A program made the translations under genes and the position numbers. This document shows, piece by piece, positions 2,725 to 8,569 of a stretch of DNA of 23,965 nt (positions within the stretch are counted from its first letter, which is position 1; each line of letters begins with the position of its first letter). The DNA lies in contig CAKZXL010000147.1 of NCBI GenBank assembly GCA_937883885.1, positions 1 through 23,965 on the forward strand. The letters are read 5' to 3'. The DNA is from an uncultured Aquincola sp. (GTDB taxonomy: Bacteria > Pseudomonadota > Gammaproteobacteria > Burkholderiales > Burkholderiaceae). The notes under the pieces are model-generated. The model had not been told where the DNA came from. It was given only the letters and a program-made list of their open reading frames with translations, and ran no database searches.

Positions 2725-5202
2725 TCACACAAACGGCGTGAACTCCGTGCGCAGCCGCGCCTGCGGCGCGCTCCAGCCCAGCAGCCAGTCGGCGAAGTCG
2801 GCTTCGGGCATGGGCTTGCCCATCAGGTAGCCCTGGGCTTCATCGCAGTGCAGGGCCTTGAGCAGGGCCCAGGTCTGGGCGTTTTCCACGCCCTCGGCGC
2901 ACACCGTCAGGCCCAGGTTGTGGGCCAGGTCGATGGTCGAGCGCACGATCTTCAGGTCGGCGCGGTCGGTCTCCATCGCCATCACGAAGCTGCGGTCAAT
3001 CTTCAGCTCATGCAGCGGCAGCCGCTTGAGGTAGGCCAGCGACGAGTAGCCGGTGCCGAAGTCGTCGATCGACAGCCGCAGCCCCATCGCGTGCAGCCGC
3101 TGCAGCGTCTGCAGCGCGCGCTCGGGATCGTCCATGATGGCGCTTTCGGTGATCTCCAGGCACAGCGCCTGAGGCTGCACGCCACCACGCGCGAACAGGC
3201 GCTCCATCTTGGCCGGCAGGTGCTGGTCCAGCAGGTCGCGGGTGCTGAGGTTGATCGCGAACTTCAGCGCCACGCCCTGGCGCTGCAGCTCGGCATAACG
3301 CATCGAGCAGCGCTCGATCATCCAGCCCGTCAGCTCGCGGATGAAGCCGGTCTGCTCCGCGAACGGGATGAACTGCATCGGCGGGATCATGCCGCGCTGC
3401 GGATGCTGCCAGCGCACCAGCGCCTCGGCGCCCACCACCTCGCCGCTGGCCATCGCGATCTTGGGCTGCAGGTACAGCCGCAGCTGGTCCTGGGCCACCG
3501 CGGCGCGCAGCTCGGTCAGCAGCGACAGCGAAGCTTCGCTCGACGAATCGATCTGCGGGCTGTAGGTCACCACGCCCACCTCGTGCGAGGGCTGCGACTT
3601 GGCCGCGTACATCGCCATCTCGGCGCGCACCAGCAACGCATCGGCGGTCTGCCCATGCGCGGGATGCGCGGCGATGCCGATGCCGGCGCTGACGTCGATG
3701 GTGTGGTCGTCCAGCGTCAGCGGCTCTTCCAGCCGGCGGCGCAGGCGCATGGCCACGTCCACCGCCACGTCGGCATCGGCGCCGGGCAGCATCACCGCGA
3801 ATTCGTCGCCGCCCAGGCGGGCCACCAGGTCCTGCTCGCGCAGGCCGCTGGCGCCCAGGCGGGCGGCGATCTGGCGCAGCAGCCGGTCGCCGAAGGCATG
3901 GCCCAGCACGTCGTTCACATGCTTGAAGCGGTCCAGGTCCAGCATCAGCACCGACATCGCCCGCCCCTGCGCCAGCTGGTGGCTCAGCACGTCATGGAAC
4001 TGCGCGCGGTTGGGCAGGCCGGTCAACGTGTCCCAGTAGGCCAGGCGGCGCACCTGCGCCTCGCGCTGCTGCATGCCCCGGCGCATCGCCTCGAAGGAGC
4101 GGGCCAGGTCGCGCACCTCGTCGCGCGCCTGCACCACCACCGGCGTGGCGTAGTCGCCGGCCCCCAGCCGTTCAGCGCTGCGCGACAAGGCCTGGATCGG
4201 CCGCGTGATGTTGCGGGCGGTGACGATGCTGCCCACGAAGAACACGCCCAGCCCCGCGGCGCTGATGGCCAGCAGGATGAGCTGCAGCCGCCGGAACGGC
4301 GCCACCGCCTCGTCCACCGATTGCAGCAGCAGGGCCGCCGCCTCGGTGCCTGGCGAGCGGCCCAGCATCACCACACGGGTGGCGTACCACTCGCCGTCCA
4401 GGTTCACGGTGGCGTCGGCCGCCGCTGGGCCCGCGGCGAGCTGGCGCAACTGGGCCGACAGGCGGTCGGCCTGCTCGGCTGCCTCGCGGCTGGCGTCGGT
4501 GGGCTGCACCTGCCAGGCGCCGTCGGCAAAGCGCACCGCCAGCACCGCACGCAGCCCGGCGATCTGCTCCACGTCGCGCAGCAGCGCCGCGCCCAGCGGA
4601 AAGCCCATCGACACCTGGCCGATGGGCTGCGGTGCGCGCACTGCCACCGTCACGATCTGGAAGGGCCGGCCCTCGAACACCGCGACGGTGCTGGCCTCGG
4701 CCGTGGCCGCGCCCTGGCGGGGCAGCATGGCCAGCGCCTGCAGCGCCGCATCGGGCTGGCCGGTGCTGGTGGCCACCAGCTGGCCGCGCAGGTCGGCGTA
4801 GAAGGCCAGCTCGGCGCCGATGCGCGCGCCGTGGTTGTCCAGCGCATCGGCCACGGTGGCACGGTCGCCGCTGGCCACCGCCGCCCGAAAGCCGAAGTCG
4901 GCCGCCAGCACCTTGGAGGCATCGGCCAGGTTCTGCGCATTGGCCGCCAGCAGGCGGCGCAGCACCTTGTCGCCGGTGGCCAGCTCCTGGGCGATGGTGT
5001 GGCGGGCATTGGCTTCCAGGTCGCGGCGGATGGCCAGGAAGCTGGCCGCCTGCACCAGCACCAGCAGCCCGACGAAAAGGCCCACGATGCGCCACTGCAG
5101 CCGGCGCGAGAAGGGCCGCCACAGGCGCGCCAGCAGCCGCTTGCGCTGGCTGCGGTGCGCCGGCGATCCGGCCGGCGGCAACAGCGTGTGGCGCGAAGGC
5201 AT
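2725..5202 (-). CDS. Membrane-bound sensor-HAMP-GGDEF-EAL c-di-GMP enzyme
   Basis: An 825-residue inner-membrane protein predicted to make and/or degrade cyclic di-GMP. Order: basic N-terminus, TM1 about 38-57, a periplasmic region of about 245 residues that resembles a double CACHE sensor, TM2 about 306-328, HAMP about 325-380, GGDEF about 385-545, EAL about 560-815. The cyclase motif GGDEF (464-468) is intact and is preceded by REQD (455-458), a good inhibitory RxxD I-site five residues upstream. The EAL half keeps EALVR (593), Asn651, Glu683, DDFGTGYSS (713 on), Lys734 and Glu770, so phosphodiesterase activity is plausible too. The gene starts 6 nt after the cupredoxin stop codon, so the two are almost surely one transcript. 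Which activity dominates cannot be read from the sequence. Confidence 0.93.
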   Translation of the reverse strand: MPSRHTLLPPAGSPAHRSQRKRLLARLWRPFSRRLQWRIVGLFVGLLVLVQAASFLAIRRDLEANARHTIAQELATGDKVLRRLLAANAQNLADASKVLAADFGFRAAVASGDRATVADALDNHGARIGAELAFYADLRGQLVATSTGQPDAALQALAMLPRQGAATAEASTVAVFEGRPFQIVTVAVRAPQPIGQVSMGFPLGAALLRDVEQIAGLRAVLAVRFADGAWQVQPTDASREAAEQADRLSAQLRQLAAGPAAADATVNLDGEWYATRVVMLGRSPGTEAAALLLQSVDEAVAPFRRLQLILLAISAAGLGVFFVGSIVTARNITRPIQALSRSAERLGAGDYATPVVVQARDEVRDLARSFEAMRRGMQQREAQVRRLAYWDTLTGLPNRAQFHDVLSHQLAQGRAMSVLMLDLDRFKHVNDVLGHAFGDRLLRQIAARLGASGLREQDLVARLGGDEFAVMLPGADADVAVDVAMRLRRRLEEPLTLDDHTIDVSAGIGIAAHPAHGQTADALLVRAEMAMYAAKSQPSHEVGVVTYSPQIDSSSEASLSLLTELRAAVAQDQLRLYLQPKIAMASGEVVGAEALVRWQHPQRGMIPPMQFIPFAEQTGFIRELTGWMIERCSMRYAELQRQGVALKFAINLSTRDLLDQHLPAKMERLFARGGVQPQALCLEITESAIMDDPERALQTLQRLHAMGLRLSIDDFGTGYSSLAYLKRLPLHELKIDRSFVMAMETDRADLKIVRSTIDLAHNLGLTVCAEGVENAQTWALLKALHCDEAQGYLMGKPMPEADFADWLLGWSAPQARLRTEFTPFV

Positions 5203-5208
5203 GGCCCG

Positions 5209-5826
5209 TCAGCCGCCGGCCTTCAGCCGCAGCACGGCGCGCTGCGCGCCGGTGGCCACGGTCAAGGCGGTTTCGGCCGGCAGGCCGGTCTCGCCCTGGC
5301 TGAAGTGCCAGGCGCGCAGCAGATGCTGGCCGGCGGGCACGTCCAGCGTGGCTTCGCCGCGCGCATCGGTCTTGCCGAACAGGGGCGTGTCCACCACGTG
5401 CACCCAGGCGCTCATCTGGTCGTGCACGTTGCAGCCCAGCGCGGCGGTGCCGGGTTTGTCGAACACCACCGGCTTGGCGGGCGTGCCGGCATACAGCTTC
5501 AGCTCGAAGCTGCGGATCGGCGAGAACGAATAGACGTGGTGGCGCACCGTGTCGAAGTTGGGAAAGCTCACCGAGGTGCCGGTCTGCACCACCGTGACGC
5601 TGGGCACGAACTGGCGCTCGCGCTGGGCGATCTCGGCGGTGGCGCCGGTGGCCGCCTGCGGCTGGCCCTTGAGCAGCACGTACACCGCGGCGTCCGCCAG
5701 CGGCTTGCCGGCGGCATCGGTGACGCTCACTTGAACGGGGGCGGCGTGGGCGCCCAGGCACAGGCCCAGCGCTGCGGCCAGCATGCCGGCCTCGGCGCGG
5801 CGCTTGAAGGTCGTCGGGAGGGGCAT
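5209..5826 (-). CDS. Periplasmic cupredoxin-like protein (methylamine utilization protein-like)
   Basis: A 205-residue exported protein. Residues 1-28 form a signal peptide (hydrophobic MLAAALGLCLGAHA, likely cut before APVQ). The middle has FPNFDTVRHHVYSF and then GCNVHDQMSAW: His96 or His97 with Cys132, His135 and Met138 would form a type 1 copper site. The Cys-x2-His-x2-Met spacing equals that of amicyanin rather than plastocyanin (x2, x4). A beta-rich tail (about 150-205) with TDARGEATLDVPAG looks like a small carboxypeptidase-regulatory-type or Ig-like domain. Relatives are commonly labelled methylamine utilization protein, but no mau genes are present here. It is the first gene of a two-gene operon with the membrane GGDEF-EAL protein, so it may bind copper or carry electrons and influence the sensor domain; that link is inference. 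Confidence 0.8.
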   Translation of the reverse strand: MPLPTTFKRRAEAGMLAAALGLCLGAHAAPVQVSVTDAAGKPLADAAVYVLLKGQPQAATGATAEIAQRERQFVPSVTVVQTGTSVSFPNFDTVRHHVYSFSPIRSFELKLYAGTPAKPVVFDKPGTAALGCNVHDQMSAWVHVVDTPLFGKTDARGEATLDVPAGQHLLRAWHFSQGETGLPAETALTVATGAQRAVLRLKAGG

Positions 5827-5959
5827 GGCAGGGTGGACGCTGGCGAAGACTTGCTGGGGCCGGCGCAGTAGACCTCAAGACCCCGGCGCGGCATCCGAAA
5901 AGAAAGGCAGATTCCGGCAGCCAGTTCCGGCTGGTGCGCCTGCCCCGAGGTCGTCTTCC

Positions 5960-8569
5960 GTGTCGCAACCCCTTCGTCATCCCTGCCCAGGCATCGCCTT
6001 GCCGCCAGCGCAGGCCCATGCACTGCTGGCGCAGACACTGGAACAGGCGATCGACGGCGTGGTGGTGATCGACGAGCACAACGACGTGCTGGTGTTCAAC
6101 GCCGCCGCCGAGCGGCTGTGGGGCTACCCGCGTGAAGCGGTGCTGGGCAGCAACGTGCGCATGCTGATGCCCGCGGCCCAGCGGGCCAGCCACGATGCCG
6201 GCGTGCAGCGGCACCGCAGCACCGGCCAGGCCCGCATCGTGGGCCGCGAGGTGGAAGTGCCCATCGAACGCGCCGACGGCAGCCTGGGCCAGGCGGTGAT
6301 GTCGATCTCGCACATCCAGCACGAAGGCCGCGACCTGTACTGCGCCTTCGTGCGCGACACCACGCAGCAGCATGAATTGCTGGCCCGCCAGCGCCTGCTG
6401 TCCACCGCGGTGGATGAAAGCGACATTGCCGTCATCGTCACCGGCGCCGACCGGCGCGTGGTGTTCGCCAATGCCGGCTGCCAGCGCATGTTCGGCTACA
6501 CCCTGGCCGAGATGGTGGGCCACCACCCCAGCGACCTGATCACCGGCCCCCACACCGACCCGGCCACCTTGCAGGCCCTGACCAGTACCGAAGACCGGGG
6601 CGAACAAGGCATCACCACCGAACTGCTGGCCTACACCAAGGACCGCCGGCCGCTGTGGGTGTCCACCGCCGTGAACCCGGTGCACGACGCGCACGGCCTG
6701 GTGCGCAACTACGTCAGCGTGCTGACCGACATCACCCACACCAAGCTGCACGAGGTGCTGCAGTTCCGCGTGCTGGACGCGATGGCGCGCGAAACCGCCC
6801 TGCCCGAGCTGATGCTGCTGCTGTGCCGCGAGGTCGAGCGCATCGCGCCCGAGGTCATCGCCTCCCTCCTGCAGGTGGACGACGAAGGACGGCTGCGCAC
6901 GCTGGCCGGCCCCAGCCTGCCACCCGGCTATTGCCAGCAGATCGACGGCCTGGCCATCGGGCCGGCCGTGGGCTCCTGCGGCACCGCGGCCTGGCGCAAC
7001 ACCCCGGTGATGGTGAGCGACATCGCCACCGACCCGCTGTGGGCGCCCTTCAAGGACCTGGCACTGCCGCTGGGCCTGCGCGCCTGCTGGTCCAGCCCCA
7101 TCCGCGGCAGCGACGGCCAGGTGCTGGGCACCTTCGCCTTTTACTACCGCGAGCCGCGCGAACCCAGCGCGCTGCACCAGCGGCTGGTGGACGTGAGCCT
7201 GCACCTGTGCATGCTGATCCTGGAGCGCGAGAAGTCCAAGAGCCACATCCACCAGCTGGCCTTCTACGACACCCTGACCGGTCTGCCCAACCGCGCCCTG
7301 CTGCGCGCCCGCACCGAGCGCGCGCTGACCGATGCGCAGCGCAGCGGACGGCCGGTGGCGGTGCTGTTCGTCGACCTCGACCGCTTCAAGCAGGTGAACG
7401 ACACCCACGGCCACCTGGTGGGCGACCGGCTGCTCACCGCGCTGGCGCAGCGGCTGCGCAGCGTGGCCCGGGCCGAGGACATCGTCGGCCGGCTGTCGGG
7501 CGACGAGTTCCTGGCGGTGCTGCCCGACTGCGGCGGCAGCCATGCGCTGGCCGCCGTGCAGCGGCTGGTGGCGGCCGTGGCCCAGCCGCTGTCGGCCCAT
7601 GGCGTGACGCTGCACCCGCGCGCCAGCGTCGGCGTGGCGCTGTATCCGCAGGACGGCACCGACATCGACACCCTGATCCGCCATGCCGACATGGCGATGT
7701 ACCAGGCCAAGACGCATGAGCGCGGCAGCTACCGCTTCTTCAGCGCCGAGATGAACCGCGAGGCGCAGGAACGCGCCATGCTGGAAGCCGACCTGCGCGA
7801 AGCCCTGGGCGAAGCCGGCGGCCTGGCGCTGCACTACCAGCCCAAGGTCAACAGCCAGGGCGGCCAGCTGCATGGCGTGGAAGCGCTGCTGCGCTGGCAG
7901 CACCCGCGGCTGGGCGCGGTACCGCCGCTGCGCTTCGTGGCGCTGGCCGAGGACTGCGGCCTCATCCACGCGCTGGCGCACTGGGTGCTGGCCGAAGCCT
8001 GCCGCCAGATGGCCGACTGGCGCGCCCGCGGCGTGGCGGTGCCGCATGTGGCGGTGAACCTGTCGGCCAGCAACTTCCTCGATCCGGGGCTGCCCGGCTT
8101 CATTGCCGGGCTGCTGCAGCGGCATGGCCTGCACAGCGGCGACCTGGCGGTGGAAATGACCGAAAGCGTGATGCTCAACCCCGACCCGGTGGTGCTGGCC
8201 ACCGTCAAGGCGGTGCATGCGCTGGGCGTGAAGATCTCGCTGGACGACTTCGGCACCGGCTACTCCAGCCTCAGCCACCTGCACCGGCTGCCCATCGGCG
8301 AACTCAAGCTCGACCGCAGCTTCGTGCAGGACATCGAGCATGACGAAATGGCGCGGGCGCTCACCGTCTCGGTGCTGCGCATCGGCCACACGCTGGGCCT
8401 GACCGTGGTGGCCGAAGGCGTGGAAACCGAAGCCCAGCGCCGCTTCGTGGCCGACCAGGGCTGCCCGGTGGTGCAGGGCTACCTGGTGTCCAGGCCGGTG
8501 CCGGCGCAGGGGCTGGAAGCCTGGCTGCTGCGCAGCCAGGTGCCCGAGGCGCTGCTCAGCGCGCTGTGA
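5960..8569 (+). CDS. PAS-PAS-GAF-GGDEF-EAL protein, DosP-like putative heme oxygen sensor
   Basis: An 869-residue soluble protein, with the same overall plan as E. coli DosP (heme-PAS, PAS, GAF-like, GGDEF, EAL). PAS1 covers about 20-140; its AAAERLWGY, MLMPAAQRASHDAG and GQARIVG blocks align with DosP and FixL, and His78 falls on the proximal heme ligand of both (DosP His77, FixL His200). PAS2 is about 145-262, GAF about 265-425, GGDEF about 428-598, EAL about 605-860. The cyclase motif is SGDEF (513-517), a permitted variant, with RAED (504-507) as I-site. EAL residues are intact (EALLR at 641, DDFGTGYSS, LKLD, AEGVE). The GTG at 5960 has GAGG nine nt upstream; a longer reading from 5783 would overlap the divergent cupredoxin gene and adds low-complexity sequence. 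Likely a cytosolic c-di-GMP phosphodiesterase controlled by O2, NO, CO or redox. Confidence 0.9.
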   Translation: MSQPLRHPCPGIALPPAQAHALLAQTLEQAIDGVVVIDEHNDVLVFNAAAERLWGYPREAVLGSNVRMLMPAAQRASHDAGVQRHRSTGQARIVGREVEVPIERADGSLGQAVMSISHIQHEGRDLYCAFVRDTTQQHELLARQRLLSTAVDESDIAVIVTGADRRVVFANAGCQRMFGYTLAEMVGHHPSDLITGPHTDPATLQALTSTEDRGEQGITTELLAYTKDRRPLWVSTAVNPVHDAHGLVRNYVSVLTDITHTKLHEVLQFRVLDAMARETALPELMLLLCREVERIAPEVIASLLQVDDEGRLRTLAGPSLPPGYCQQIDGLAIGPAVGSCGTAAWRNTPVMVSDIATDPLWAPFKDLALPLGLRACWSSPIRGSDGQVLGTFAFYYREPREPSALHQRLVDVSLHLCMLILEREKSKSHIHQLAFYDTLTGLPNRALLRARTERALTDAQRSGRPVAVLFVDLDRFKQVNDTHGHLVGDRLLTALAQRLRSVARAEDIVGRLSGDEFLAVLPDCGGSHALAAVQRLVAAVAQPLSAHGVTLHPRASVGVALYPQDGTDIDTLIRHADMAMYQAKTHERGSYRFFSAEMNREAQERAMLEADLREALGEAGGLALHYQPKVNSQGGQLHGVEALLRWQHPRLGAVPPLRFVALAEDCGLIHALAHWVLAEACRQMADWRARGVAVPHVAVNLSASNFLDPGLPGFIAGLLQRHGLHSGDLAVEMTESVMLNPDPVVLATVKAVHALGVKISLDDFGTGYSSLSHLHRLPIGELKLDRSFVQDIEHDEMARALTVSVLRIGHTLGLTVVAEGVETEAQRRFVADQGCPVVQGYLVSRPVPAQGLEAWLLRSQVPEALLSAL

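Follow-up and report, generated by a model that had tools for sequence, protein, structure and literature searches.

Can a DosP-like protein still act as an oxygen sensor when its heme pocket lacks the residue that holds oxygen? FixL and DosP are generally agreed to hold O2 by means of a distal arginine. A gene in a 23,965-nucleotide stretch of DNA from an uncultured Aquincola sp., here called the window, raises this question since its product carries a valine at the place of this arginine. The reading that we favour, with modest confidence, is that the window protein would be a DosP-like, heme-containing c-di-GMP enzyme that senses NO, CO or the redox state of its heme instead of binding O2 stably.

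Domain architecture and heme-pocket residues

The gene lies at 5960..8569 on the + strand and, by ORF call, Pfam and NCBIfam, encodes a DosP-like protein of 869 aa with the order PAS-A, PAS-B, GAF, GGDEF and EAL. Its start is GTG, and in-frame ATGs at 5783 and 5825 are also possible starts. A search for a sigma-70-like promoter or a terminator in 5700-6100 gave no match, which is uninformative in high G+C DNA. PAS-A (residues 20-138, 6017..6373, +; Pfam PAS at 23-133) is a domain of the DosP/FixL heme-PAS type according to PDB sequence matches, a predicted model and superpositions. It is followed on the same strand by the Pfam matches PAS-B (PAS_9, residues 157-259, 6428..6736), GAF (GAF_2, 280-421, 6797..7222), GGDEF (434-588, 7259..7723) and EAL (610-846, 7787..8497). 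Motif location places SGDEF at residue 513 and an RxxD site (RAED) at 504. In the EAL domain, motif location and comparison with E. coli DosP show that E641, N700, D762, D763, K783, E819 and Q839, which we take to be the metal-binding and catalytic residues, are intact and lie in columns invariant with DosP. The SGDEF motif, the RxxD site and the intact EAL residues together make both synthesis and hydrolysis possible, and the protein may thus be able to make and cleave c-di-GMP.

The best NCBIfam match is the DosP model NF008467, which covers residues 18-858. Despite this near full-length match, the score of 712.4 bits stays under the equivalog cut-off of 857. E. coli DosP (EcDOS, b1489), an oxygen-sensing c-di-GMP phosphodiesterase, is 34% identical overall and shares the PAS-PAS-...-GGDEF-EAL order, an ungapped PAS-A alignment, the proximal His and the EAL residues. 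In contrast to the window protein, it has no GAF match, and its GGDEF motif is EGTQF. In the pocket, Met95 of DosP is replaced by Arg96, Arg97 by Val98, Asn84 by His85 and Phe113 by Met114. The window protein is DosP-like by its architecture, with a GAF domain in between, but its sequence lacks the distal Met and the O2-binding Arg of DosP and scores below the equivalog level. From rhizobial FixL it shares the heme-PAS fold and the F-helix His. It differs in having Arg96 for Ile218 and Val98 for Arg220, and Pfam finds no kinase domain in it, whereas FixL ends in a histidine kinase.

Both the sequence and the predicted structure of PAS-A align without gaps with DosP and FixL heme PAS domains. 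The model superposes on FixL 1dp6 at 1.2 A with spans of equal length. Alignment and superposition agree that His78 (6191..6193, +) takes the place of the proximal ligand (DosP His77, FixL His200), Arg96 (6245..6247, +) that of DosP Met95 and FixL Ile218, and Val98 (6251..6253, +) that of DosP Arg97 and FixL Arg220. An earlier note had made these assignments from an alignment by eye and gave the codons of His78 and Arg96; it was exact to the residue, its codon positions were correct, and neither alignment nor structure prediction displaces His78 from the heme pocket. A His occupies position 78 in 39/39 rows of a hand-chosen alignment (A3). It lies inside modelled helix 72-88, and an F-helix His is the heme site of PAS cluster 3, the FixL/DosP heme PAS (PMC10468136, in part). 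Leu99, Phe113 and Leu115, the hydrophobic triad near the ligand in DosP (PMC4263535, in part), correspond by alignment to Val100, Met114 and Ile116. The nearest engineered parallel to Val98 appears, from part of its record, to be the R220A FixL structure 1y28.

The model also matches structure 10jx of FG214, a heme-PAS transcription factor with a distal side unlike that of FixL (PMC13060918, in part). FG214 is chiefly bis-His, its distal His175 standing 19 residues after the proximal His156 (preprint PMC13060918, in part). Counting residues rather than aligning, this spacing leads to Glu97 in the window protein.

Loss of the distal arginine in two clades

The three nearest orthologues among the best 120 of 481 matches bear on the history of the pocket. 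In the first 280 residues, P0021, P0023 (from genome G001) and P0033 (from Aquincola tertiaricarbonis) share 81, 77 and 75% identity with the window protein. Residues 96-98 are S-A-V, T-E-V and T-T-V in these proteins, respectively, and R-E-V in the window protein. Val98 is therefore common to all four Aquincola-type proteins, and Arg96 is private to one and later. Related PAS domains usually read T-x-R: His78, Thr96 and Arg98 occur together in 333/419 PAS alignments, drawn from the first 121 proteins and the plus-strand frames of 30 loci (L001-L030), many of them chemoreceptor repeats. The simplest history for these sequences has Arg98 disappearing in the shared ancestor of the four and Thr/Ser96 turning into Arg later, in the window lineage only. 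The earlier note had read the distal pocket as one whose arginine had moved by two positions. Its alignment and its proximal His stand, as does the lack of the Arg that binds O2, but the movement does not. A shift of gaps, with a 2-residue deletion and a 2-residue insertion (GTSREVEIER in the family, GREVEVPIER here), was considered as the source of Arg96 and rejected: the four orthologues align ungapped and keep Val98-Glu99-Val100-Pro101, and the superposition spans are equal.

P0124 (743 aa) and P0125 (724 aa), which are close kin from PAS-B onward, have no PAS-A, and P0123 carries another N-terminal sequence before PAS-B that by eye seems membrane-spanning. These three proteins suggest loss or exchange of the input domain next to the Aquincola-type clade.

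The wider family was sampled as 228 DosP-type proteins, taken from the best 120 of 481, the best 120 of 5554 and the best 120 of 2853 matches. The N-terminus is too short in 34 of them; 152 cover 80 or more of the 103 alignment columns, 142 are distinct, and 107 have the aligned His. E. coli DosP is outside this PAS-A sample of 142, as it did not pass the PAS-B/GAF filter. Among the 107 distinct His-bearing PAS-A domains, 70 have Arg98 and 29 have Val98. A second large group without Arg98 is Phreatobacter-type, in the Alphaproteobacteria, with Val and sometimes Leu at position 98. Its members (e.g. P0226, P0169, P0254) are DosP-like and mostly keep His78, some having R, K or H at 96; P0226 and P0169 share 50% identity with the window protein. 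Among the matches listed, P0201, P0227, P0254 and P0255 are named Phreatobacter, and P0246 comes from a Xanthobacteraceae MAG. The gene is present in 10/12 genomes of one genus (E up to 1e-40), taken as Phreatobacter from its matches. Eight of these ten loci have Val at position 98 and two have Leu, the Leu pair being the two with Tyr for His78, and position 96 is T in five, S in two, and R, A and K in one each. The Tyr-bearing pair is P0201 and P0239 (L134 and L135), in which Tyr ligation or heme loss is possible. P0242 combines His96 with Val98 and is possibly a bis-His heme-PAS, in idea like FG214.

In a tree of 35 proteins, the Aquincola-type and Phreatobacter-type proteins form separate supported clades, each beside proteins with Arg98. 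A single origin of Val98 is rejected by the AU test (LG+G4): forced monophyly is 173.6 log-likelihood units worse, with a p-AU of 1.2e-48, on 35 hand-picked rows (12 vs 23) and for a group chosen after an earlier tree. By these sequences, loss of Arg98 is separate in the two clades. In a larger tree of 106 proteins, 36 rows lack Arg98, and 28 of these fall within the two clades. Further losses are scattered (P0285, P0160, P0219, P0297, P0302 and P0315/P0175).

Probable heme retention and probable signal

The pattern of conservation bears on whether PAS-A still binds heme. Together, the two clades comprise 30 proteins, all without Arg98. His78 is kept in 4/4 Aquincola-type and 24/26 Phreatobacter-type proteins, as is Tyr127 (DosP Tyr126), while Asp32, Trp54 (DosP Trp53) and Pro71 are present in 30/30. 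Arg92 is found in 4/4 and 18/26, with Lys in five of the latter. DosP Asn84, part of the propionate hydrogen-bond network (PMC4263535, in part), is matched by Asn in 25/26 Phreatobacter-type proteins and by His85 in 4/4 Aquincola-type proteins.

PAS-A could nevertheless have given up heme, with His78 as a remnant and the domain serving as a dimerisation element or binding another ligand on the way to being lost. This is a doubtful reading that still deserves weight, because PAS-A evolves faster than the remaining domains. Its dN/dS is 0.44 and 0.75 vs 0.23-0.50 for other domains (two orthologue pairs, five domains), by the Nei-Gojobori method, which is rough at this G+C. The ratio of PAS-A distance to that of the rest is 1.27-1.73 in six Aquincola-type pairs, with a median of 1.29 for other pairs without Arg98 (110 pairs) and of 1.00 for pairs with Arg98 (10-90% 0.68-1.72, 157 pairs). 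Loss of heme would also fit the nearest relatives outside the clade, P0123-P0125, and the Tyr at position 78 in two of the 26 Phreatobacter-type proteins. Against it, His78, Trp54, Pro71 and Tyr127 are all kept in the four clade members, whose PAS-A domains are 72-79% identical; the His has been lost in other DosP-type proteins (it aligns in 107/142) and yet is kept here. The balance favours retained heme binding.

The preferred reading of a DosP-like heme enzyme draws on the gap-free homology, His78, the DosP domain order, the best NCBIfam match, the pocket residues conserved across both clades and the intact EAL residues. The faster change of PAS-A, its absence in P0124 and P0125, the other N-terminal sequence of P0123 and the score under the cut-off count against it. 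Heme, coordination, ligand and direction of regulation are inferred. PAS-A would hold heme through His78, with a distal side that has neither the switchable Met ligand nor the O2-hydrogen-bonding Arg of DosP; by alignment, this side is made up of Arg96 (Thr or Ser in its orthologues), Val98, Val100, Met114 and Ile116. Since equivalents of Met95 and Arg97 are missing, the Fe(II) heme is predicted to be open on the distal side and five-coordinate or weakly six-coordinate. Because the hydrogen bond to O2 is lost, a short-lived oxy form and relatively better binding of CO and NO are expected: CO and NO would bind readily, and the O2 complex would be weak or fast-oxidising. In DosP, incoming O2 replaces Met95 and is bound by Arg97, both side chains rotating by ~180 degrees, and signalling proceeds through the F-G loop (PMC4263535, in part). 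Ligand binding or oxidation in the window protein could likewise shift the F-G loop and the G strand and alter the activity of EAL and perhaps that of GGDEF. In that case NO, CO or the redox state of the heme, and not stable O2 binding, would be the signal. An exception is conceivable in the window protein alone, where Arg96 could provide a new contact to O2.

Variants of E. coli DosP PAS-A indicate what each change may do. In R97I, the Kd for O2 rises to 500 uM from 20-21 uM, and autoxidation to 0.16 from 0.0053 per min; R97A and R97E autoxidise at >9.5 and >45 per min, respectively (PMC4263535, in part). M95A/L opens the sixth heme site, and these variants bind O2 fast and tightly, with a Kd of <0.73 uM (A) and <0.45 uM (L) (PMC4263535, in part). 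The window protein combines both types of change, which speaks against a simple prediction of weak O2 binding, and its O2 affinity is not readable from the DosP variants. An altered ligand preference, as the earlier note proposed, is a fair inference from the pocket residues. Most likely, a pocket of this sequence is unable to stabilise O2 as DosP does, O2 binding through a different contact being the alternative.

Such a contact could come from Arg96 if it swung over the heme and took over the hydrogen bond to O2 from the lost Arg97, which would give a mirrored distal pocket and leave the protein an O2 sensor. In DosP, side chains 95 and 97 swap between facing the heme and facing the surface upon O2 binding (PMC4263535, in part), which makes such a swing conceivable. 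In a tree of 106 His-bearing DosP-type proteins, six gains of a basic residue (R/K/H) at 96 fall on branches without Arg98 and three on branches with it. Branches without Arg98 make up 6.94 of the total length of 27.42 and hold 6/9 basic gains (p 0.011). The p value was 0.014 under a first Fitch reconstruction that set an ambiguous deep node to non-Arg98; the recomputed lengths limit this state to pure clades. Other counts argue against a relocated arginine. Only one of the four Aquincola-type proteins carries Arg96, the others having Thr or Ser there, and gains of Arg alone are 4/7 on branches without Arg98 (p 0.07). Basic vs small/hydrophobic gains are 6:3 without and 3:9 with Arg98 (p 0.087). 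Per sequence, a basic residue at 96 is present in 7/37 proteins without and 4/70 with Arg98 (p 0.045), but dropping the gap row P0189 gives 6/36 (p 0.085). An independent-pairs test of basic 96 against Arg98 loss, from which P0247 was left out, is not significant, the informative pairs being too few for significance. Part of the sample was drawn around the Phreatobacter-type clade, and the residue classes were picked after the data were seen. Arg96 also occurs beside Arg98 in 4/70 distinct proteins, so its presence alone does not make it a replacement. The counts weakly suggest, as a lead only, that basic residues at 96 are somewhat commoner where Arg98 is missing. Selection of Arg96 upon loss of Arg98 is suggested by the branch counts and not by the event-type comparison or the independent pairs, and we do not claim it. 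We consider an O2 sensor with a relocated arginine quite unlikely.

An ordinary O2 sensor with a neutral Arg96, a hydrophobic pocket holding O2 without a distal arginine and unchanged physiology would suit the variability of residue 96 (beside Arg98 it is T in 46/70, otherwise S, A, V, R, I, L or G) and the tight O2 binding of the Met95 variants, but it is highly improbable given that Arg97 variants lose O2 affinity or oxidise fast (PMC4263535, in part), that most His-bearing family members keep Arg98, and that its absence is concentrated in two clades.

Wider meaning and gene neighbourhood

Since the distal Arg was lost twice separately while the putative heme-holding residue was mostly kept, these arginine-less DosP-like proteins may respond to another gas or redox state. 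The two lineages amount to a natural experiment on ligand change in heme-PAS domains, in which the three Thr/Ser96 orthologues help to isolate the effect of Arg96. A loose parallel is offered by NO-selective H-NOX domains, which lack the distal Tyr. Titles and abstract openings among the papers listed from an open-access library gave no description of DosP homologues without Arg97, which is weak evidence that such proteins are undescribed so far. A bolder generalisation, by analogy, would make arginine-less DosP a new, natural and convergent heme-PAS class that, in controlling c-di-GMP, gave up O2 as a signal in exchange for NO, CO or redox state, with the Arg re-created two residues upstream as a mirrored pocket in a few members including the window protein. 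We think it unlikely.

Two genes on the - strand lie divergently beside the DosP-like gene. One encodes a dCache_3-HAMP-GGDEF-EAL protein (2725-5202), and the other a 205-aa protein (5209-5826) with a CarboxypepD_reg match under its cut-off. In L121 (genome G161), the DosP-like gene alone was found out of the five genes GGDEF-EAL protein, 205-aa protein, DosP-like gene, DbpA helicase and Suv3-like helicase. Their order is the same as in the window in two Aquincola-type loci, L120 (G001) and L031 (Aquincola tertiaricarbonis), and this conservation may point to a linked c-di-GMP module.
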